From Lachnospiraceae bacterium (lineage in GTDB: Bacteria; Bacillota; Clostridia; Lachnospirales; Bianqueaceae), in contig JAAWDX010000007.1 of assembly GCA_022794035.1 (NCBI GenBank), positions 1 through 64,000 on the forward strand: a stretch of DNA of 64,000 nt, written 5' to 3'. The notes under the pieces were generated by a model, which was not told the DNA's origin, did no database searches, and was given only the letters and a program-made list of their open reading frames with translations. The position numbers were made by a program, and so were the translations under genes. Shown piece by piece: positions 1,052 to 31,218 of the stretch (positions within the stretch are counted from its first letter, which is position 1; each line of letters begins with the position of its first letter).

Positions 1052-1080
1052 TTGAGTTTTTCATTATTTTACGCTATAAT
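1052..1080 (+). promoter_or_regulatory. Sigma-A type promoter of the IbrA/IbrB-like pair
   Basis: TTGAGT (1052-1057) and TATAAT (1075-1080) are separated by 17 bp. Transcription would begin near 1087, about 25 bases before the revised start codon. This is a strong reason to reject the longer reading frame that begins at 1052. Confidence 0.8.
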
Positions 1081-1111
1081 AAAACAGGGATTGGAAGGAG
1101 AAGACATTCAA

Positions 1112-2434
1112 ATGAAAAGAATCTATAGTTCTCAAAATGTATATGACGCTCTTCAGGAACGTCTTCATTTTATTTTTACAGAATTTGATAATATTTACGT
1201 TTCCTTCTCTGGAGGCAAGGATAGCGGACTTTTATTAAATCTAACCTTAGATTTTCAAAAAAAGTATTACCCCCATAAACGAATCGGTGTTTTTCATCAA
1301 GATTTCGAAGCCCAATACACCGTCACCTCAGAGTTTGTGGAGCGTACCTTTAAACGCATTGAAAATGAAGTAGAGCCCTATTGGGTTTGTTTGCCTATGG
1401 CCACCAGAACTGCTCTCAGCAGCTATGAAATGTTCTGGTACCCCTGGGATGACACCAAAGAGGATGCCTGGGTGCGGCCCATGCCGCAACACCCTTACGT
1501 AATCAATCTTCAGAATAATCCCATGACCACCTATCACTACCGCATGCACCAAGAAGATCTTGCCAAACAGTTTGGCCGTTGGTACCGTCTCTCACACGAT
1601 AACAAAAAAACGGTCTGCCTGCTTGGGATCCGCGCCGATGAGTCATTGCAGCGTTACAGCGGCATCATTAATAAAAAATATGGTTATCAGGGATCCGCCT
1701 GGATTTCCAAGCAATTTAAAGATGTATGGTGCGCTTCTCCTCTATATGACTGGCGATCCTCTGATGTATGGCATGCCATCAGTCTTTTCCACTATGACTA
1801 TAACCGCTTATATGATCTGTATTATATGGCTGGCTTAAAGATCAATCAAATGCGGGTAGCTTCTCCTTTTAACGATTATGCAAAGGACAGCTTAAATCTA
1901 TATCGCGTTATTGATCCTCAAATTTGGACTAAGCTGGTCGGGCGAGTGCAAGGTGCCAATTTTGCTGCCATCTACAGTAAAACCAAAGCGATGGGATATA
2001 AAAATATCACACTTCCCGAAGGCTATACCTGGAAAACCTATACACAGTTTTTACTCAGCACCCTTCCCTCTCGCCTCAGAAGAAACTATATTCAGAAATT
2101 TAATACTTCGATTCGTTTCTGGCATACGACCGGCGGTGGTTTAGAAGAAGAAACAATTCAAGAGCTGGAAGCTCATGGATATCGCATTCAGCGAAATGGT
2201 ATTTCCAATTATACCATCGGTAAAAATTCCCGCGTGATCTTTTTAGATAAGATCCCAGATCATACCGATGATATTAAATCTACCAAAGACATTCCCAGCT
2301 GGAAGCGTATGTGCTACTGTATTTTAAAAAATGATCATATTTGTCGCTTTATGGGCTTTGGCCTCACCAGAGAACAGCAAAGCAAAATTAACACCCTAAA
2401 AATTAAGTATCGTAAACTTGGAGAATCATCATGA
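1112..2434 (+). CDS. PAPS reductase-like PP-loop protein, DUF3440 / IbrA type
   Basis: The protein belongs to the PP-loop ATP pyrophosphatase superfamily in its phosphoadenosine-phosphosulfate reductase branch. It shows the signature SGGKDS at residues 33-38, LGIRADES around 171-178 and a PLYDWRSSDVW motif around 210-220. The C-terminal half (about 230-440) fits the DUF3440 region of IbrA-like proteins. The start is set at 1112, where GGAAGGAG precedes ATG; this gives 440 residues. It overlaps the next gene by four bases (ATGA), so the two are translationally coupled. In E. coli, IbrA and IbrB activate expression of immunoglobulin-binding surface proteins. The wider family often travels with mobile DNA, and the PP-loop domain is related to DndC of DNA phosphorothioation. 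A role in sulfate assimilation is unlikely because no sulfate genes are nearby. Substrate and role here are unknown. Confidence 0.85.
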   Translation: MKRIYSSQNVYDALQERLHFIFTEFDNIYVSFSGGKDSGLLLNLTLDFQKKYYPHKRIGVFHQDFEAQYTVTSEFVERTFKRIENEVEPYWVCLPMATRTALSSYEMFWYPWDDTKEDAWVRPMPQHPYVINLQNNPMTTYHYRMHQEDLAKQFGRWYRLSHDNKKTVCLLGIRADESLQRYSGIINKKYGYQGSAWISKQFKDVWCASPLYDWRSSDVWHAISLFHYDYNRLYDLYYMAGLKINQMRVASPFNDYAKDSLNLYRVIDPQIWTKLVGRVQGANFAAIYSKTKAMGYKNITLPEGYTWKTYTQFLLSTLPSRLRRNYIQKFNTSIRFWHTTGGGLEEETIQELEAHGYRIQRNGISNYTIGKNSRVIFLDKIPDHTDDIKSTKDIPSWKRMCYCILKNDHICRFMGFGLTREQQSKINTLKIKYRKLGESS

Positions 2435-2961
2435 GTTATCAAAGTCCTGTATACCAGATCCTTTCTGTTCCTATTGAAAAAATTGTCCCCAATACATATA
2501 ATCCTAACTCTGTGGCGCCGCCGGAATTAAAGCTTCTATATGATAGTATTAAAGAAGATGGATATACAATGCCCATCGTCTGTTATCATGTAAAAGAAGA
2601 CGATACCTATATCATTGTCGATGGCTTTCACCGTTATCGTATTATGCTGGACTATCCGGATATCTACGAACGAGAGAGCGGTAAGCTACCTGTCTCTGTC
2701 ATTGACAAGCCCTTAGACTGCCGGATGGCAAGTACAATTCGTCACAATCGCGCCAGAGGATCCCACGATGTTGATTTAATGAGCAACATTGTTGCAGAAT
2801 TGCATGAACTGGGACGTTCTGATGCCTGGATTTCTAAGCATCTTGGCATGGACAAGGACGAAATATTACGACTTAAGCAAATTACTGGTCTAGCCGCTCT
2901 TTTTCAGGATGTTGAATTTGGAAAAGCCTGGCAGCCTCTTGATGAGGATCTGCCGCAATAA
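2431..2961 (+). CDS. ParB-like domain protein, IbrB type
   Basis: This 176-residue protein has a ParB/sulfiredoxin-like fold: an N-terminal VPIEKIVPNTYNPN stretch (13-26), the GFHRYR box (65-70) that corresponds to the nucleotide-binding motif of ParB proteins, and HNRARG (105-110). A short helix-turn-helix-like segment follows (about 128-152). It lacks the C-terminal dimer domain of chromosomal ParB, and there is no parA, so it is not a segregation protein. Its start overlaps the stop of the PAPS-reductase-like gene, which is the arrangement known for ibrA-ibrB. The pair is therefore most likely a coupled regulatory or nucleic-acid-modifying unit. Whether it binds CTP or DNA cannot be told from sequence. 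Confidence 0.85.
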   Translation: MSYQSPVYQILSVPIEKIVPNTYNPNSVAPPELKLLYDSIKEDGYTMPIVCYHVKEDDTYIIVDGFHRYRIMLDYPDIYERESGKLPVSVIDKPLDCRMASTIRHNRARGSHDVDLMSNIVAELHELGRSDAWISKHLGMDKDEILRLKQITGLAALFQDVEFGKAWQPLDEDLPQ

Positions 2962-20863: not shown

Positions 20864-20881
20864 AAATCAAGGTTCTTTTTT
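20845..20881 (+). terminator. Terminator overlapping the dinB stop codon
   Basis: GGGATCTTGATT pairs, with G-U pairs, to AATCAAGGTTC around a GAA loop that contains part of the TGA stop, followed by TTTTTTT. Confidence 0.65.
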
Positions 20882-21721
20882 TGTCTTAGGCCTGTAGAGC
20901 ACCTCGCTTACAGAATAAATCGTAATAAAAGCATCCGGATCTATCTCCGTTAAAAAATTCATCAGTTTGACATATTCCTGCTTATTGACAATCACAATCA
21001 GCTCATCCCGTTTCTTTTCATCATAGGCGCCATAGGCATGGTACAGCGTAGCTCCGCTATGCAGCGTATGAAGCACAAATTCCCGAATCTCCTTTTCCTT
21101 TTCGGAGATGATGCATACCCTCTTTTTCATTGTCGAGCCAAAGATAAAATGATCCAGAACCAATCCGCAGACATAGGTCCCCAGCACGCTCAGCACAACT
21201 GTTTTCAGATCATATACAAAAATTGCTGAAACAGCGACGCACATTCCCGGGATTGCCAATGCCTTTCCCAGATCCACCCGCAGATATTTGTTCAGAATTT
21301 TAGCGATAATATCCAGACCGCCTGAGGAGGCATTTCGGTTAAAAAGCATGGCCTGTCCCACGCTGACTGCAAAACAATATACCACCATATCGACAAATGC
21401 ATCCCCTGTGATAGATTCAAACTGAGGAAAGCCATGTTCCCACAGGGCCAAAAACACAGGAAATAAGATAGAGGTATAAATGGTTTTGATGCCAAATTCT
21501 TTTCCCAGCGTAGCAAATCCAATGATCAGCAGGATCACATTCAGCCCCATGCTAAGTGCCGAAACAGAAAGACCTGTAACCTGATTCAGCAGCACGGCCA
21601 GACCCGATACGCTTCCCATAGAAAGATGACTGGGCATCATAAAGAAAAACACGGCTGCCGAGCATAGGAAGGTCCCCAACGTAATGGATGCATACTCTTG
21701 TATTTGTTTGATTGTTTTCAC
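20867..21721 (-). CDS. YitT-family membrane protein (DUF161 + DUF2179)
   Basis: The 284-residue protein has five to six membrane helices (about 12-190), containing the YitT features MGSVSGLAVLLNQ and NASSGGLDIIAKIL. A cytosolic DUF2179 domain ends it (about 205-280: VCIISEKEKEIREF and VLYRPK). Function is not established for the family; transport or signalling has been suggested. It starts with GTG at 21721, about seven bases after GGAG, and lies 36 bases downstream of the ParB-like/BMP fusion gene, so the two are probably co-transcribed. Confidence 0.85.
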   Translation of the reverse strand: MKTIKQIQEYASITLGTFLCSAAVFFFMMPSHLSMGSVSGLAVLLNQVTGLSVSALSMGLNVILLIIGFATLGKEFGIKTIYTSILFPVFLALWEHGFPQFESITGDAFVDMVVYCFAVSVGQAMLFNRNASSGGLDIIAKILNKYLRVDLGKALAIPGMCVAVSAIFVYDLKTVVLSVLGTYVCGLVLDHFIFGSTMKKRVCIISEKEKEIREFVLHTLHSGATLYHAYGAYDEKKRDELIVIVNKQEYVKLMNFLTEIDPDAFITIYSVSEVLYRPKTKKEP

Positions 21722-21757: not shown

Positions 21758-23710
21758 TTATAACTCCGTTACCCCTTCGCTGTCGCTGCCTCCGCCTTCA
21801 GAGAAGCGAAGCAGGCTCTGCGCTTCTTCCGTTAGCTCTGACGCCATAGGGATCTCTCCGATTACGTTATCGATCAGCCAATCCATCGTCACAATATCAT
21901 TGGTTGTGATATAGCCATCCTCTTGAGCCCTCAGCTGCCCCATTTGATCTCTCACATATCCATCAAATGGACTGATATTTCGGCGTATCAATGCATTTTT
22001 ATAAAATTTAACCAATTGCCGTACTCCCTCTGGCAGATCCTCTGAATAAAGCATATCCACCACATTGGAAGAAAGTCCCCACCAATAGTTGATTGATTTA
22101 AGCTCATCCGTATCATCTACTTCATCCCAGGCTCCGCTTAAAATGCTGCGGATGATCCGTTCATAAAAATAGCCCCAGTTCCAGAAAGGCATCGCTAAGC
22201 CTTTAATTCCCTTTTCTTCGATCATATACAGACCGAATTTTCGGTTTGCCAAATTAGGAGTGATCATATCCTGATGAGAAACCATGTCCACATCCAGCTT
22301 TTCAATTTCCTGATTCAGATCCATGTCCTTTTGTGTTGACCACCGCAAATATACCTCTGCTTTTGGATTGACCAGCTGTACACCTCTGGCAAATGCGTTA
22401 ATATTGGCGATCATACCAGAAATCGGATAATCGGCTACATACACGATTCTATTTTTAACTGTCATAATGCCGGCAATCAGCCCGCAAAGGAATTTTGCCT
22501 CATACATACGCCCATAATACGTACGCAGATGCCGATAGGCCATGTTGACAGAGCAATTCAAAAATTTTACCTGAGGATGATTGATAGCGGCTTTAAGTGT
22601 TTGCTGAATGAGCTGCGGCGTTGTCGTAAATACTACGTCAAACTCTTGCTGTGCAAGCTCTTCCAGCACCTCATCCGGCGTTTTATCCTGATCAAAGACA
22701 GCATCGATCGAGCAGATTTCAACCTGCTCCCCCATCACTTCCTCCAGATACAAGATTCCCAGCTCATGCCCATAGGTCCAGCTGGAGGTCTCTTTTGTTT
22801 TATCGTGTACAAATGCAATTTTAAGCTTCTTTTTATTGCTCCCGCTCAGTGCTGTGGACAGCAGATTCACAATGCCCTTGTGCGCCGGCTCCTCCTGCGG
22901 CTCAAGCTGCAGGCCTACCGGCGTTTCTTTTTCGGCCAGCTCAATGCTTTCCCACATTCTTTCCAGCTCTTCCTCCAGCTCGGCCACGGATTTTTCATTG
23001 ATATCATTCAAGGAAAATACTTTAAGAAATTCTAACAGCGCATCTCCGACCGTAATATCCAATTTGTGTCCGCCCAGCTTGGCAAACGCATTTGAAAAAC
23101 GCGTATAGCAGGAATGAAATTCCTTTTGGAAATCCGTATCCCAGTCCTCTTTCGTCGGCCTTTTTAAAAGCTCCAGCAGCTTTAAAAAGCTCCCCTCTTT
23201 AGAAAACCAGATATAATTGATGCGGGCCACTTTATAAAACTGCAGAAATTCCCGATAGATATTGGATTCTCTGCTTCCATTGGGCCGAGGAATAATCCGG
23301 GTAACGGTGCCGGGAACCGAAACAGCTCCAAAATACTTTAAAACACTGACTCTCTTATTGCCCTCCGTCACATAAAAGCGATTCATAAATTCATAGCATT
23401 TGATGGGATCCCGAATGCCTTCTGTCAAATGAATATCGCACAGTGTGATCCATTTATTGGCAAACTCCGTATATTCATCCAGCAGCGGCATAAAATTATC
23501 GGCAAAAGCGGTGCTTCTGGAGCGTCCGTTGGTTCCTACGATTTGATCGATTGGGATATCGACTAGGCCCAGCGATACCTCAGATTCAATCTCAATATTT
23601 GAGGTCAGTTCTTCTAAAACCTGCAGATATGGATAAACTCCCTTTGCCAGATTTGCCTGATATTCTTTGCGGCCCTGCCGCAGTGCTCTTTTATAGTCAG
23701 CAATTGCCAT
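21758..23710 (-). CDS. Cytoplasmic fusion: ParB-like N-terminal domain + helical linker + BMP/PnrA-type periplasmic-binding fold
   Basis: The start at 23710 (GGGGGAG eight bases upstream) gives 650 residues without signal peptide or lipobox. Residues ~48-140 resemble a ParB/sulfiredoxin-like domain (VDIPIDQIVG at 50-59; YVTEGNKRVSVLKYFG at 113-128, the place of the ParB nucleotide-binding box). A helical stretch (about 150-260) links to residues ~294-600, which have the BMP/Med/PnrA sugar- or nucleoside-binding fold (IAFVHDKTKETSSWTYGHELG, then AGIMTVKNRIVYVADYPI). BMP proteins normally capture purine nucleosides outside the cell for an ABC importer. This one must work in the cytoplasm, so a sensor or regulator is more likely than a transporter. 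It shares a divergent promoter region with clpE. The ParB-like call rests on motif reading only. Confidence 0.75.
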   Translation of the reverse strand: MAIADYKRALRQGRKEYQANLAKGVYPYLQVLEELTSNIEIESEVSLGLVDIPIDQIVGTNGRSRSTAFADNFMPLLDEYTEFANKWITLCDIHLTEGIRDPIKCYEFMNRFYVTEGNKRVSVLKYFGAVSVPGTVTRIIPRPNGSRESNIYREFLQFYKVARINYIWFSKEGSFLKLLELLKRPTKEDWDTDFQKEFHSCYTRFSNAFAKLGGHKLDITVGDALLEFLKVFSLNDINEKSVAELEEELERMWESIELAEKETPVGLQLEPQEEPAHKGIVNLLSTALSGSNKKKLKIAFVHDKTKETSSWTYGHELGILYLEEVMGEQVEICSIDAVFDQDKTPDEVLEELAQQEFDVVFTTTPQLIQQTLKAAINHPQVKFLNCSVNMAYRHLRTYYGRMYEAKFLCGLIAGIMTVKNRIVYVADYPISGMIANINAFARGVQLVNPKAEVYLRWSTQKDMDLNQEIEKLDVDMVSHQDMITPNLANRKFGLYMIEEKGIKGLAMPFWNWGYFYERIIRSILSGAWDEVDDTDELKSINYWWGLSSNVVDMLYSEDLPEGVRQLVKFYKNALIRRNISPFDGYVRDQMGQLRAQEDGYITTNDIVTMDWLIDNVIGEIPMASELTEEAQSLLRFSEGGGSDSEGVTEL

Positions 23711-23765: not shown

Positions 23766-23794
23766 ATTATAGCAAAAACACTTGCAATTGTGAA
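23766..23794 (-). promoter_or_regulatory. Promoter for the BMP fusion gene, facing the clpE promoter
   Basis: On the minus strand TTCACA (23789-23794) and TATAAT (23766-23771) are separated by 17 bp. It overlaps the clpE -35 region, so the two polymerases cannot bind together. Confidence 0.7.
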
Positions 23795-23810: not shown

Positions 23811-23923
23811 AAGATTTTAGAATGTTGGATAGACATGCCGAGGTCTGCTGCTGCAAAAAATTGGGGTTCAGGGCTGCTCTCGGCGCTTTGAAAGTGCTTG
23901 GCGCTTTGGAATGGAGGAGTAAC

Positions 23924-26215
23924 ATGCTGTGTCAAATCTGCCATAAAAATACGGCCGTTATCTATGTAAATCGGCTGGAAAATGGTCAAAATAAACAAAT
24001 CGCCATGTGCCTGAGCTGTGCTCAGAAGCATGGATTTTCTCTTAAAACTATGATGGAACAAAATGGTCTTAAGCCAGAGGATATGGAAAACATCGGCGAG
24101 CAGATGAATTCTTTGATGGAAAACCTCTCTGAGGATGGCAATATGGAAGCGCTTGAAAAGATGTTTCCTCCCGAAATGCTGAATATGATGATGGGAGCGG
24201 CTCATCCCGGCGAAGACGCAGAAGATGAGATGGGAATTGCTCCTGAGGAGCCCTCTGCTTCCGAGTCTTCTGAAAAGCCTACCAAAACTGCCAGACGCAG
24301 GCAGGAAAAATTAAAAACACTCTCGAAATTTGGTACCAACCTTACACAAAAGGCTGCTGACGGTGAAATTGATACTGTAGTCGGACGCAGCTTTGAAATC
24401 GACCGGCTTATGCAAATTCTTAACCGTCGAACCAAAAATAATCCGGTGCTGCTGGGTGAGCCTGGTGTTGGCAAAACGGCCATTGCCGAGGGCTTTGCTC
24501 TGCTCATTGCTCAGGGCCGGGTCCCGGTTAAGCTGCGTGATAAGCAGGTATATTTGCTTGATATGACGGGTCTTGTCGCCGGCACGCAGTTTCGCGGACA
24601 GTTTGAGGCACGCATGAAGGCAATTATCAATGAAGTAACCGCCGCTAAAAATGTCATTCTTGTCATTGATGAAATTCATAATCTGGTCGGTGCCGGCGAT
24701 GCCCAGAACTCTATGAATGCCGCCAATATCTTAAAGCCTGCTTTAGCTAACGGAAGCCTTCAGATTATCGGCACCACTACGCTGGAGGAATATCGCAAAT
24801 ATATCGAAAAGGATTCTGCTTTAGAGCGGCGTTTTCAGCCTATCATTGTCGATGAGCCGTCCAAAGAAGAGGCTATCGAAATTTTGAAGGGCATTCGTCC
24901 GCATTATGAAAATTACCATAACGTAGCCATCTCGGATGAAATCATTGAGGACGCTGTCTCTCTTTCGCAGCGCTATATCCATCAGCGCTTTTTGCCGGAT
25001 AAGGCAATTGATGTCATTGATGAAGCGGCATCCCGCGTCAACCTGCAAAATACCGGATTGATCGATCTGCAGGATCTGGAAAAAACACTGGAAGTCACGC
25101 TGCAGAAAAAAGAAGACGCTGCCGCCGCCGAGGATTTTGAAACGGCTGCCAAATGCCGCGTAGAAGAGCTTAAGCTGGAAAAAGAAATTGAAGCCAAAAA
25201 GGCTTCCTGCACGCATGTTCCGCTCACCTTTGATGATCTGGCGCATGTCATCGAAGGCTGGACCAAGATTCCTGTCAAACGTCTTACCAGTGAGGAATCC
25301 GCCAAATTAATCGCCCTGGAAGACCACCTGCATCAGCGCGTAATTGGTCAAAATGCTGCCGTTTCTGCTCTTTCGCGTGCAATCCGCCGAAATCGCTCCG
25401 GATTCCGCAAAGAACGCAAGCCGGCCTCCTTCATCTTTGCCGGGCCTACGGGCGTTGGTAAAACAGAGCTGGTTAAAACTCTGGCAGTCGAGCTTTTTGG
25501 CACAGAGGATGCGCTGATCCGGATTGATATGTCAGAGTATATGGAAAAGCACACCGTATCTAAGCTGATTGGAGCGCCTCCTGGCTATGTTGGCTATGAT
25601 CAGGGCGGACAGCTGACGGAGAAAATCCGCCGTCGTCCTTTTTCGATTATTCTGCTGGATGAAATTGAAAAGGCTCATGCAGATGTCTTTAATATGCTGC
25701 TGCAAATTTTGGATGACGGCCGCCTTACCGATAGTCAGGGACGTACTGTCAATTTTGATAATACGATCATTGTCATGACTACCAATGCCGGCGCCAGCTT
25801 TAAAAACAATGGGCTGGGCTTCAATCAAAATGATACCTCTGCTCTTTCGCAGCGTATTGAAACTGCTTTAAAACAGCTGTTCCGTCCCGAATTCATCAAT
25901 CGAATTGATGAGATCATCACCTTTGATCCTCTGACCAAACCAGAGCTGCGTCAAATCGTAGATCTCATGCTGCAGGATGTATATCGTTCCGGAGCCTATC
26001 AGAACATTTCCATTGCTGTTTCGGATGAAGTAAAAAGCTATCTGGCGGAAAATGGATATGATGAAAAATACGGCGCCCGACCGCTCCGCCGTTTGATCCA
26101 GCGGACCATCGAGGATGAAATTGCCGAGGCCTTTTTAAAGGAATCCATTCGCAGCGGCGACCGCATCGAGCTTATTATGCAGAATGGAAAACCCGCTATT
26201 CAGCATCTTTCCTGA
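23924..26215 (+). CDS. clpE: ClpE-type AAA+ unfoldase with N-terminal zinc finger
   Basis: This Hsp100 unfoldase feeds ClpP or disaggregates proteins. The N-terminal treble-type zinc finger uses Cys3, Cys6, Cys29 and Cys32, which is the hallmark of ClpE rather than ClpC. A long charged linker (about 50-140) follows, then AAA domain 1 (Walker A GEPGVGKT at 178-185), a UVR coiled segment (about 386-420), AAA domain 2 (Walker A GPTGVGKT at 507-514) and a ClpB-type C-terminal domain. A GLGF tripeptide loop in domain 2 is a probable ClpP contact. The ATG at 23924 has GGAGG six bases upstream and gives 763 residues, somewhat longer than Bacillus ClpE (about 700). mcsA/mcsB and ctsR are absent nearby. 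Confidence 0.92.
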
Positions 26216-26307: not shown

Positions 26308-27852
26308 TTATTCTTCTTTGCCCACATTCAGCAAACGCTTTGTATAGGGATGCCGCGGATTGGCATATATCTCTTCCGCATCGCCCAGCTCGACCAATTT
26401 TCCTTGATAGAGCACGGCAACGCGGTGACAGATATGCCGCACAATGTTTAAGTCATGCGAGATAAACAGTATCGTCAGCTTTCTTTTTTCATGAAGCTCT
26501 AAAAGAAAGGCCAGAATCTGAGACTGTACGGTCACATCCAGCGCTGAAACGGCCTCATCTGCAATTAAAAATTTAGAATCTGTGAGCAGAGCCGCGCCAA
26601 TACTGATCCGCTGTCTCTGACCGCCGGACAGCTCATCCGGATATCGGTGGTAATACGATGCATCCAAACCAATATCCTCCAGCATACTGCAAACTCTTGC
26701 ATACCGCTCCTTTTTCGCATATCGCTTTCGCAGCGGTTCTTCTAAAATCCAGCCAATGGTATGGGCTGGATTAAGCGAACTAAACGGATCCTGAAAAACC
26801 ATTTGCGGTCGCAGCTGTGCGTCCATGCGAAGAGTCCCCTCATACTCCGGATTGAGCCCTGTAATCGCTTTGGCCAGCGTTGACTTTCCGCAGCCGCTCT
26901 CTCCGACGATGCCCAAAATCTCTCCTTCGTAGACCGATAATGTGAGATCTTCAATCACCCGGCGACGGGCCTTTTTAGACCAGGGTCCTCTTGTCTTTTC
27001 CTCATAGAACACATTCAGATTCTCTATTTCCAGTACCGCATGCCTAGACGGCTGAACACTGCTTCTCTCCGGCAGCCTGGCCACCAGTGTTTTCGTGTAG
27101 GCATGCTGCGGGGTACGAAGCACCGTCTGCACCGCTCCCCTCTCTACAATTTGTCCCTGATACATGACAAGTACTTCATCGCAGATTTCACGAATGACGT
27201 TCAAATCATGAGAAATAAATAGGATGGACACACCATGCTCTTCATGCAGCCTTTTTAATAGCTGCAAAATCTGAGCCTGTACGACCACATCCAAAGCGGT
27301 TGTCGGCTCATCTGCAATCAGAAGCTTCGGATGACAGATCATGGCCTGTGCAATCATCACCCTCTGGCGCATACCGCCGGATAGCTCATGCGGATATTGA
27401 TCATAAATCTTTTCTGCTTCCGATAGGCCCACTTCCTGCAGCGCAGCAAGCACTCGTTGCCGAAGCGCTTCCTTTCCCTCCTGATCCGATGAAATCGCTT
27501 CATGAAGCCGCAGACTCTCTCCCACTTGCCTCCCAATGCGCATCACCGGATTTAAAGATGTCATCGGCTCCTGAAAAATCATTGCCAGGTCTTTTCCCTG
27601 CACCTGTGTATACTGCGCCGGCGTCATGGATAATAGTTCCTGATCCTCCAGATAAACACTTCCGCTCACGGTGCATGCTTTTTCTGCCAAAAGCCCCATG
27701 ATCGCCAGCGCTGTCATCGACTTACCCGAGCCAGATTCTCCCACAACACCTAAAATTTTTCCATCAGGAAGAGAAAAAGAGATATCATCTACCACTTTAT
27801 GCAGCTGCCCGTCCTGGGGAAAGGCAACGCTTAAATGCTCTACTTGAAACAT
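26308..27852 (-). CDS. Peptide/nickel-type ABC transporter, fused double ATPase
   Basis: Two complete ATP-binding cassettes are fused in 514 residues. The first has Walker A GESGSGKS (about 38-45) and signature LSGGMRQR; the second has GESGCGKS (about 316-323) and LSGGQRQR. Each ends in the oligopeptide/dipeptide C-terminal extension (PQHAYTKTL and PRHPYTKRL). It is thus equivalent to DppD plus DppF or OppD plus OppF in one chain, as in GsiA and YejF. It energises the two permeases encoded upstream in the same operon. It is the last gene of the unit, ending at the shared terminator. Confidence 0.95.
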   Translation of the reverse strand: MFQVEHLSVAFPQDGQLHKVVDDISFSLPDGKILGVVGESGSGKSMTALAIMGLLAEKACTVSGSVYLEDQELLSMTPAQYTQVQGKDLAMIFQEPMTSLNPVMRIGRQVGESLRLHEAISSDQEGKEALRQRVLAALQEVGLSEAEKIYDQYPHELSGGMRQRVMIAQAMICHPKLLIADEPTTALDVVVQAQILQLLKRLHEEHGVSILFISHDLNVIREICDEVLVMYQGQIVERGAVQTVLRTPQHAYTKTLVARLPERSSVQPSRHAVLEIENLNVFYEEKTRGPWSKKARRRVIEDLTLSVYEGEILGIVGESGCGKSTLAKAITGLNPEYEGTLRMDAQLRPQMVFQDPFSSLNPAHTIGWILEEPLRKRYAKKERYARVCSMLEDIGLDASYYHRYPDELSGGQRQRISIGAALLTDSKFLIADEAVSALDVTVQSQILAFLLELHEKRKLTILFISHDLNIVRHICHRVAVLYQGKLVELGDAEEIYANPRHPYTKRLLNVGKEE

Positions 27853-27867
27853 AGCTTATCTCCTCTC

Positions 27868-28680
27868 CTAGTGCTGCTCTGCACGCAGGCCTTCACTGAT
27901 CATAGAAAACCCTAAGATGATAAAAATAATCACAATTCCCGGTGATAAGGCATACCACGGTGCATTAAAAAGATAGGACTGTGCCTCTGAAAGCATCCGC
28001 CCCAGACTCGGCATCGGCGGCTGCAGACCCAGACCTAAATAACTCATGCTCGCCTCTGCCAGTACCGCATTATTAAAGGCAATAGCCGCTGTTGTCAAAA
28101 GACTGACAACGGTATTGGGCAGGATATGCGCAAAAATAATGCGAAACGGGGAAACACCCATAATCCTTGCACTTTTCACAAAGTCCAGCTCCTTACAGCG
28201 AATAACCTCGCTACGCACAATCCTTGCAAAACTGGGAATAAACAAAATCCCTAATGCCAAAATCACATTTTCGGTTCCCGGCCCCAAAAAACTAATAAAA
28301 ATCAGCGCTAAAAGCACGCTCGGAAAGGAAAGCAGCATATCATTGATGCGCATCACTGCCTCATCTAAAATGCCGCCAAAATATCCTGTCAGCGCACCGA
28401 TAACAATCCCTATTGCAGCGCCGATCGTCACCGTTCCTACCGCCACCAGAAAGGTCATGCCGCTTCCATTCATCACCCGGCTTAGCACGTCGCGCCCGAA
28501 ATTGTCGGTCCCCATCGGATGCAGCAGACTCGGCGCCAGATTCACCGCTGCCGAATTCATTTCCGTAACCGAGTACGGCGTCCAAAACTGCCCGATAATA
28601 GCCATCAATAAAAAGAAGAGCGTTATCGCCACTCCTATGATCAGCTGCCCATTTCTTTTCTGTTTATTTCTGATCTTCAT
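27868..28680 (-). CDS. Peptide/nickel-type ABC permease, DppC/OppC type
   Basis: The 270-residue integral membrane protein has about six helices and the BPD_transp_1 fold. It carries the HPMGTDNFGRDVLSR motif (about 53-67) of DppC/OppC proteins and the EAA cytosolic loop ARIVRSEVIRCKELDFVKSARIMG (given here only as position, about 150-173). Its ATG overlaps the stop of the partner permease (ATGA), so the two are made in a fixed ratio. Confidence 0.95.
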   Translation of the reverse strand: MKIRNKQKRNGQLIIGVAITLFFLLMAIIGQFWTPYSVTEMNSAAVNLAPSLLHPMGTDNFGRDVLSRVMNGSGMTFLVAVGTVTIGAAIGIVIGALTGYFGGILDEAVMRINDMLLSFPSVLLALIFISFLGPGTENVILALGILFIPSFARIVRSEVIRCKELDFVKSARIMGVSPFRIIFAHILPNTVVSLLTTAAIAFNNAVLAEASMSYLGLGLQPPMPSLGRMLSEAQSYLFNAPWYALSPGIVIIFIILGFSMISEGLRAEQH

Positions 28681-29621
28681 CGCACCTTCACTCGCGGATC
28701 AATCCATTGATATAGTACATCGACTAAAAAATTAACAGTCACCACAATCACCGTGATATAGGTCACAGCAGCCTGCACCACCGGATAATCCCGGCCGGAA
28801 ATAGCCGTAATCAGCAGTCTTCCCATGCCGGGAATGCTAAACACCTGCTCAGCCACAATGCTCCCTGCCAAAATATCCGCAATTACCAGCGCCAAAAAGG
28901 TTACCACCGGAATCAGCGCGTTGCGCAGCACATGCACATACAAAATTCTCTTTTCCGAGCTTCCCTTGCTATGTGCTGTCCTCACATAATCCTGATCAAT
29001 TTCCTTCAGGATGGAATTACGTAAAAATTTAACCACCATTGCAATTTTAGGCAGCGCCACCGCAATAGCGGGAAAAATCAGATAGGCTATGCTTTGCCCA
29101 AGGTCCTCTTTTGGAGAAACAAAGGCTCCTGGCTGGAACCAGTGCAGCACCAGACCAAATATATAGGTGAAAAGCATTCCCAGAAAAAAAGAAGGAATCG
29201 CCATCGTCAGCTGTGTCAGCTGACTGATCAGGGTATCTACAAAGCCTCCCCTGTGCTGCGCGCTGAAAATCCCCAGCGGAATCGCAATCCCTAAAATCAG
29301 CACAAAAGAAAGCAGCGCTAAAAGCAGTGTAACCGGAAGACGCTGCGCCAGTAGGCTCGCTACAGTAACGCCGTCATACTGATACGATTCTCCAAAATCT
29401 CCCTGCACGGCCTTCCCAAGCCAGCGAACATACCGCACGGGCAATGGGTCATTCAGCCCCATCTCTTCTCGAAGCGCTTCCACCTGCTCCGGCGTCGCTT
29501 CTGTGCCCAGTTTGGCTGTCGCCGCATCTCCCGGAATCACGGAAAAGGCGGTGAAGGTAAGCAGGGATATCAGCACCAGTGTAATAATGAGAGTTCCAAC
29601 TTTTTTGACAATATAAGGCAT
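28677..29621 (-). CDS. Peptide/nickel-type ABC permease, DppB/OppB type
   Basis: This 314-residue permease has an N-terminal helix with LLTFTAFSVIPGDAA, the typical DppB/OppB opening. It continues with a BPD_transp_1 domain of about five helices and the EAA loop near 210-235 (YVRTAHSKGSSEKRILYVHV). It forms the translocation channel with the DppC-type protein. It lies 25 bases downstream of the substrate-binding protein gene. Confidence 0.95.
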   Translation of the reverse strand: MPYIVKKVGTLIITLVLISLLTFTAFSVIPGDAATAKLGTEATPEQVEALREEMGLNDPLPVRYVRWLGKAVQGDFGESYQYDGVTVASLLAQRLPVTLLLALLSFVLILGIAIPLGIFSAQHRGGFVDTLISQLTQLTMAIPSFFLGMLFTYIFGLVLHWFQPGAFVSPKEDLGQSIAYLIFPAIAVALPKIAMVVKFLRNSILKEIDQDYVRTAHSKGSSEKRILYVHVLRNALIPVVTFLALVIADILAGSIVAEQVFSIPGMGRLLITAISGRDYPVVQAAVTYITVIVVTVNFLVDVLYQWIDPRVKVR

Positions 29622-29646
29622 ATGCTATCCCTGCTTCCTTTCGCTT

Positions 29647-31218
29647 TTATTTTGCTTTTCGGTAAATCTTTGCTACATCCCACGCCGCTGTGGGATAAAA
29701 TTCATAGCCGCCAAATTCTGCATTTAAGGCTACAAAATCAGCGGGCTCCTCGATATAAACGGAAGCGGCATTTTCCGCCAGATTGATCTGCAGCTTTTTA
29801 TATAGCTCGATCTTCTCGGCATCGTCCACCGTCTCCAGCGCCTGCGCTAAAATCTCGTCAAACTCCGAATTGTTGTAATTCGCGATGTTGTTGGCAGCCG
29901 TGCTGCCATATTTCTTTAGCCAATCGCTGGGCGCCAGCGTACCGTCAAATCCAATGATTGTTGCCTGATAATTGCGATTGTGATAGGTGTCCTCTTTCCA
30001 TGTTGTCCACTCTACCTTTTTGATCGTGGCCTTGACGCCGACCTTGGCAAGCTGTTCTACCAGAATCTGTGCGGTGTCCACATGCTGCGAGAAAGAGCTG
30101 GGCACCGTGATTTCAAGCTCGAAGCCATTCGGATAGCCGGCCTGCGTCAGCAGCTCTTTGGCCTTCTCGATATTATATTCATACAGGTTTTCTGCCTGCG
30201 GCTCATACCATTTTTCCAAAGTGGAAATCATGTGTGAGCCGATCAAATGACTTTTGCCGCCAAAAAGAAAATCGCTGACCTCCTGACGGTTGACGGCATG
30301 GCAAAGGGCCTGCCGCACCCGCACATCCTGCAGGGGGCCGTAGCTATTATTCAAAAACATGGCCTGCACGAGATTCATGCTGCCTTCCACAATCGTAAAC
30401 TGATCCGGCTGCATCTGCTGCAGCGTCTGCACCTGCGTCGCCGTCAGATAATTGAGTACATCAATCGTCCCGGCCTGCAGCTCTGTGAAGGCTGTGCTCA
30501 GATCGGCAATAAACTTAAACTGTACCGTATCCAGATAGGGCTCATTGTCCTTCCAGTACCCCTCATATTTCTTTAGATTCAGATGCTGCCCTGCCGCATA
30601 GGACACGTACTGAAAAGGCCCTGTGCCAATCGGATTCCCTGCCGGATCCGGATTGCTCTTAGGGATGATGGCCAGCGTCAGATCTGCCAAAAACTCAGAA
30701 TATCCTTCTTTTAGCTGCACCCTAACGGTTTTGGCATCTACAATCTCGACCGAATCCAAATAATTAGAAAATGCGGAGGATTCTCCTTGAATCTCCGCAT
30801 AACGCTCTATCGAATATTGAATATCCTCCACGGTAACCAGACTTCCGTCATGAAAGGTGATGCCATCTCGCAAAATGAAGGTATAGGTCTTTGCATCCTG
30901 TGAAATGTCATAATCGCTGGCGACCGCCGGCTCTAAATCGCCGGTGGACGTTGGCTTAACTAAGCCTTCGTACATGTTAAATACCACACTCCGAGTTCCT
31001 GCGTCCGAGCTTTGATGCGGGTCAAGACTTGCCAGATCCTGCGTCATGCCAAATACAAGCTCTCCGCCTGCAACCGGCTCGCCGTCAGAATCCGCTGGTG
31101 TGCTTTCTGAAGAAATATTAGTGGATGAAGTCTCTGGCTTCTTATCGTCTCCGCATGCGCAGAGTACAATAGATACTAAAAGTACCAATACGCTCAAAAG
31201 AACGATTCTTTTTTTCAT
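29647..31218 (-). CDS. Solute-binding lipoprotein, family 5 (peptide/nickel-type)
   Basis: This 523-residue extracytoplasmic binding protein has a basic start, a hydrophobic core and a lipobox ending at Cys22 (VLCAC). A Ser/Thr-rich tether follows, then the family 5 domain (GELVFGMTQDLASLDPHQ near 51-68; the signature block TFILRDGITFHDGS near 112-125). It delivers a ligand, probably an oligopeptide or related compound, to the permeases. The specificity cannot be read from sequence; glutathione, nickel or opines remain possible. As first gene of the operon it follows a clear promoter. Confidence 0.93.
   Translation of the reverse strand: MKKRIVLLSVLVLLVSIVLCACGDDKKPETSSTNISSESTPADSDGEPVAGGELVFGMTQDLASLDPHQSSDAGTRSVVFNMYEGLVKPTSTGDLEPAVASDYDISQDAKTYTFILRDGITFHDGSLVTVEDIQYSIERYAEIQGESSAFSNYLDSVEIVDAKTVRVQLKEGYSEFLADLTLAIIPKSNPDPAGNPIGTGPFQYVSYAAGQHLNLKKYEGYWKDNEPYLDTVQFKFIADLSTAFTELQAGTIDVLNYLTATQVQTLQQMQPDQFTIVEGSMNLVQAMFLNNSYGPLQDVRVRQALCHAVNRQEVSDFLFGGKSHLIGSHMISTLEKWYEPQAENLYEYNIEKAKELLTQAGYPNGFELEITVPSSFSQHVDTAQILVEQLAKVGVKATIKKVEWTTWKEDTYHNRNYQATIIGFDGTLAPSDWLKKYGSTAANNIANYNNSEFDEILAQALETVDDAEKIELYKKLQINLAENAASVYIEEPADFVALNAEFGGYEFYPTAAWDVAKIYRKAK

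Follow-up and report, generated by a model that had tools for sequence, protein, structure and literature searches.

What does a BMP-type ligand-binding domain do in a bacterial protein that carries no export signal and begins with a ParB/sulfiredoxin-like domain? The question is raised by a gene of a Lachnospiraceae bacterium (GenBank assembly GCA_022794035.1), located in a stretch of 64,000 nucleotides of contig JAAWDX010000007.1 that was analysed as a whole and is referred to here as the window. An earlier note on this DNA had placed the gene at 21758-23710, and an ORF was found there on the minus strand, running from an ATG at 23710 to a stop at 21758 and encoding 650 amino acids. The features of the locus are as follows:

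21758-23710, minus strand: fusion gene encoding a ParB/sulfiredoxin-like domain, a linker and a BMP domain (ORF call, Pfam, phmmer, alignment)
23261-23590, minus strand: putative ParB/sulfiredoxin-like domain, residues 41-150 (sequence profiles)
23504-23542, minus strand: IVGTxxxxRSxxF motif (residues 57-69), found where ParB has its C-motif (alignment)
23342-23365, minus strand: box II-like motif EGNKRVSV, residues 116-123 (alignment, register of the PDB profile)
22841-23260, minus strand: linker, apparently helical, residues 151-290 (sequence searches gave no known fold)
21848-22840, minus strand: BMP domain, residues 291-621 (Pfam, phmmer, PDB profile search)
23766-23794, minus strand: sigma-70-like promoter, 11/12 match with TG (consensus match only)
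20867-21721, minus strand: YitT-family membrane protein, codirectional with the fusion gene (PF02588 and DUF2179)
23822-26215, plus strand: ClpE-type ORF, divergent from the fusion gene (sequence, neighbourhood comparison)

The fusion is kept as a single open frame in 49 aligned members, none of which showed a signal peptide or lipobox when these were sought; all 49 start with a charged stretch. An alternative TTG start, 30 codons further upstream of the ATG, would add a hydrophobic stretch to the window ORF; a relative with 80% identity does not have this extension, and the strongest promoter match, whose -10 element is at 23771-23766, lies between the two starts, that is, downstream of the TTG. 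The absence of an export signal claimed in the earlier note therefore stands, no evidence of export having emerged, and the fusion protein is, judged from its sequence, cytosolic. Searches around the gene in Rfam gave no element, and NCBIfam holds no model matching the window protein.

The domain order proposed earlier, a BMP/PnrA-type domain behind a ParB/sulfiredoxin-like one, agrees both with the profiles of the N-terminal domain and with Pfam, since PF02608 matches the window protein at 79 bits (E 4e-22), above its cut-off of 24.1, and is matched by 49/49 fusion members. By phmmer, AtzT 6pi5 aligns over residues 293-621 (E 9.5e-30) and Brucella 3s99 is also found (E 1.4e-25); a BMP profile searched against the PDB gave 6pi5 (E 8e-78), 3s99 (E 4e-75) and PnrA 2fqw (E 1.9e-6). 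The nearest solved relatives are thus two purine-base binders, AtzT with bound guanine and 3s99 with adenine modelled, which match the BMP part of the fusion over its full length, and not the nucleoside binder PnrA that had served as the reference. The affinities given for AtzT are 110 nM for guanine and 2.5 uM for adenine (PMC6834077). Unlike these proteins, the fusion is cytosolic, places its BMP domain behind a ParB-like domain and lacks cognate importer genes. Exported BMP relatives from the same and other genomes, used as controls, are lipoproteins whose genes stand directly ahead of those for an ABC ATPase and two permeases, in most cases with an apparent xanthine phosphoribosyltransferase gene (xpt) on the upstream side (all named from sequence), an operon content that points to purine-base uptake.

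Assignment of the N-terminal domain was less direct. Pfam matched only the BMP domain in the window protein and offered no family for the N-domain; PF02195 (ParB_N) gave a match in 2/49 members (best E 0.031), below the curated cut-off, and none in the remaining 47 or in the window protein. A profile built from 43 relatives, with a mean column identity of 63%, was compared with 177,635 PDB sequences, and its top two matches were sulfiredoxin 6ky4 (E 0.031) followed by ParB 4umk (E 0.93), which share one alignment register at the EGNKR box; with two divergent bridging relatives added, the E values were 0.018 for sulfiredoxin and 0.13 for ParB. Over 4,209 ORFs, fusions made up 17 of the 19 best non-ParB matches of a ParB profile (hypergeometric 2e-28) and, reciprocally, ParBs made up 11 of the 20 best non-fusion matches of a fusion profile (hypergeometric 6e-20), both values ignoring relatedness within each family. 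The signal was also separated from controls by hmmsearch against shuffled sequences. In hhalign the N-domain and chromosomal ParB aligned end to end with a score not above decoys, so the ParB/Srx fold is supported rather than proven; it rests on the profiles because AlphaFold2 models from two-sequence alignments were poor (pLDDT 39 for the full protein and 52 for the N-domain), and Foldseek on the N-domain model was uninformative.

Within the domain, G59, T60, R65, F69, P75, E82, K86 and W87 upstream, and E116, G117, K119, R120 and S122 in the box II-like motif, are invariant in the 49 members. The domain shows a box II motif of the G-x-x-R type as well as homology at the profile level, the two marks of the ParB/Srx-like superfamily, which supports a divergent ParB/sulfiredoxin-like domain. 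Although sulfiredoxin 6ky4 is the best PDB match, the domain is not a sulfiredoxin, because Asn118 of GNKR stands where GCHR has its catalytic Cys (His does so in one of the members shown). With ParB-CTPase fold proteins (PF02195) it shares a G-x-K/H-R motif of the box II type and is distantly similar by profile, but 47/49 members have no PF02195 match and no HTH was detected. The ParB-CTPase fold is already known to be joined to other domains, and the main text of a survey of the fold mentions no BMP partner; divergent ParB-fold fusions have been found experimentally to bind NTPs, with CTP, ATP and GTP binders among them, and their specificity is unpredictable from sequence (PMC12704722). In the reading favoured below, the ParB/sulfiredoxin-like domain described here probably binds an NTP.

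Related domains occur in other settings. A 418-aa protein (L167:831-2087) has the same ParB-like domain (DGNHRVSVAK, 60 bits) without BMP, beside a gene for a SixA-like histidine phosphatase, and Bacillus phage G gp57 is a distant relative of the fusion N-domain (36 bits). The window itself encodes a second, ordinary ParB-like protein (2431-2961, plus strand, with ParB_N above cut-off at 2458-2643) that follows a PAPS-reductase-like protein (1052-2434, plus strand), a pair resembling IbrA/IbrB.

Neither of the genes flanking the fusion appears to be its functional partner. The earlier note had described it as paired with YitT and back-to-back with ClpE; both adjacencies are real, but linkage to YitT is found only in the genus of the window and linkage to ClpE only in its family (11/41 compared stretches carry a member of the ClpE ORF cluster), and both candidates were rejected because of this restriction. 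The statement that no importer lies nearby holds for a cognate BMP-type importer and fails for importers in general, as an ABC importer judged from sequence to be of the peptide type is encoded at 26308-31218, starting beyond ClpE.

The gene that does follow the fusion, in answer to the earlier proposal to trace neighbour conservation, encodes a calcineurin-like metallophosphoesterase of about 200 aa, the sole neighbour conserved across families in the 40 neighbourhoods compared. It lies immediately downstream of the fusion in 51/61 loci, those at class level included, with gaps of -4 to 476 bp and in either orientation, and is adjacent in all 19 intact class-level loci. The exceptions comprise most members of the window's family, where the gene has moved but is kept, and a second fusion copy within one genome (L119, G445:C30), which has an in-frame stop and no adjacent phosphoesterase and is possibly a pseudogene. 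The window genome's own phosphoesterase gene (G000:C9:78451-79038; L086:9449-10048, minus strand) is unlinked, encodes a protein 58% identical to the query copy and sits between genes for an XRE-type regulator and a HAD-type phosphatase; it was missed by the earlier reading because it lies on another contig. Of the 196 genomes that represent the order, both genes are present in 57, the fusion alone in two (one of these copies lies at a contig edge), the phosphoesterase alone in one and neither in 136, so that presence agrees in 193/196 (Fisher p 7.5e-46, phylogeny ignored); the phosphoesterase occurs in 0/25 genomes with exported BMPs only.

The partner matches PF00149/PF12850 above cut-off and conserves the calcineurin-like metal motifs GD, GNHD, H and HGHxH, with metal residues D8, D34, N57, H129, H163 and H165 invariant in 29 sequences. 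It shares these family matches and motifs with relatives of YfcE, Icc, MPPED2 and Dbr1, but differs from them in that motif I is D-x-E and not D-x-H in most members, and in having no close solved relative, the nearest, MPPED2, being distant (E 9e-5). The family also resembles the PADLOC candidate defence family PDC-S10 (E 3e-17).

The full-length fusion was found in 59/196 genomes of the order, at about one copy per genome and in many genera, within families f1, f2, f6, f7, f14, f17, f22 and f24; at class level it occurs in f31, f45, f46, f64, f66, f79, f83, f85 and f86, and a search of 398 genomes of the phylum found none outside the class. The fusion and phosphoesterase genes overlap by 4 bp in a record labelled Collinsella aerofaciens, where they lie beside ribosomal genes and are annotated as 'BMP family ABC transporter substrate-binding protein' and 'metallophosphoesterase'; with the labelling taken as given, this suggests that the module is present in, or has been transferred to, Coriobacteriia. 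Viral contigs yielded only a BMP-only locus, and a 10-kb record labelled bacteriophage (MT836456.1) that contains both genes is probably a misassigned bacterial contig. Both genes also occur in a chromosome-like record labelled plasmid (NZ_OY725717.1:569269-571892), and one genome with a standard fusion encodes a divergent second fusion of 593 aa outside the standard neighbourhood (L168:3629-5410).

The binding pocket gives some indication of the ligand. In AtzT the guanine site is formed by Tyr45, Ser97, Phe98 N, Glu165, Trp194, Asn218 and Asn220, with Asn169 behind (PMC6834077), and an offset of 5 places all eight residues on the sequence. The stacking aromatic at the Tyr45 position is Trp in 49/49 fusions, a pocket His near it is found in 48/49, the Ser97 position is S/T in 43 of 49 and the Asn220 position is D/N/E in 48 of 49; the window protein has W311, H315, T364 and D481, which are the same as or similar to the AtzT residues. 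Two key guanine contacts are changed in it, Glu165 to G432 and Trp194 to K461, which makes a purine ligand less certain for this protein and may mean that its ligand is larger or phosphorylated. This variation follows two clades of the midpoint-rooted fusion tree (support 1.0 and 0.90). The Glu165 position is E/D in 25/26 loci with a convergent phosphoesterase, most of which also have W at the Trp194 position, and G in 15/16 loci with a codirectional one; in the codirectional clade, together with the window's family, G and K predominate at the two positions. The ligand is possibly a base in the convergent clade and a larger or phosphorylated purine in that of the window.

The fusion architecture and its membership in a two-gene module are well supported, since the computation shows the domain order, the lack of an export signal, the conservation of the family and its motifs and the nearly one-to-one pairing; the class of ligand, NTP binding, coupling between the domains and the role of the phosphoesterase are inferred. 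In the reading we favour, held tentatively and a little short of an even chance, the module is cytosolic, and the binding of a purine ligand controls the ParB-fold nucleotide site while the phosphoesterase resets or executes the output. The BMP domain, whose ancestor would have been a purine-base binder outside the cell, would close on an intracellular purine-type ligand; closure would switch the ParB/sulfiredoxin-like domain, whose box II-type motif is still complete, to another state; and the phosphoesterase, whose metal site is almost complete, would remove a phosphorylated product or signal. A cytosolic fusion with which a phosphoesterase travels probably senses purines instead of importing them, and the intracellular small-ligand sensor of the earlier note is plausible in this more specific form.

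The strongest rival, itself rather unlikely, makes the ParB-like domain a small-molecule kinase whose substrate is the ligand bound in the BMP domain, with the phosphoesterase as the opposing phosphatase in a cycle or a damage-repair pair. The free serine kinases SerK and SbnI share the ParB-like fold, for which small-molecule kinase activity is known. SerK-like proteins are discussed in the survey of the fold (PMC12704722). Besides this precedent, the near-obligate pairing with the phosphoesterase would suit such a cycle, and K461 with G432 in the window's clade could fit a phosphate; against it, catalytic residues are not assignable from sequence alone. That the fusion acts on DNA, as a regulator or segregation factor with ligand-gated binding, is improbable: it draws on the distant homology to ParB, but no HTH was found in the linker or elsewhere in the fusion by Pfam or PDB profile searches, contrary to the DNA action suggested before, and the sole recurrent neighbour across families is the phosphoesterase. 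The linker itself had no PDB profile match better than E 2.2 and no consistent Pfam match across members.

A role in anti-phage defence or conflict, in which the phosphoesterase would be the effector, seems quite improbable, for the likeness to PDC-S10 and the relative in phage G are set against the absence of the fusion from PADLOC, its presence as roughly a single copy per genome across many genera and the ribosomal-gene neighbourhood in the Collinsella-labelled record, which is unlike defence islands. The importer subunit implied by the NCBI name and by a BMP domain above the Pfam cut-off is very improbable, because location, conservation and partnership contradict it: the 49 members lack the signal peptide or lipobox that exported relatives have, cognate ATPase and permease genes are absent nearby, and a 290-residue N-terminal extension carries strict motifs.

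ParB-fold fusions are already known, and the literature searched held no description of the ParB-like/BMP fusion, its phosphoesterase partner or the two pocket clades. For a conserved gene of many gut Clostridia, the public name is apparently wrong on both location and role, and the ParB-CTPase fold gains a type of fusion that a survey based on PF02195 would miss. A broader interpretation, less likely than not, is that a recaptured transporter binding protein gates a ParB-fold NTPase or kinase and, with its dedicated phosphoesterase, forms a cytosolic purine-responsive NTP switch, which would represent a new nucleotide-signalling or repair module widespread in gut Clostridia and apparently present in Coriobacteriia. 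The near one-to-one tie to an uncharacterised phosphoesterase turns the pair into a two-protein module, concrete enough to test, that may serve purine sensing or nucleotide turnover.
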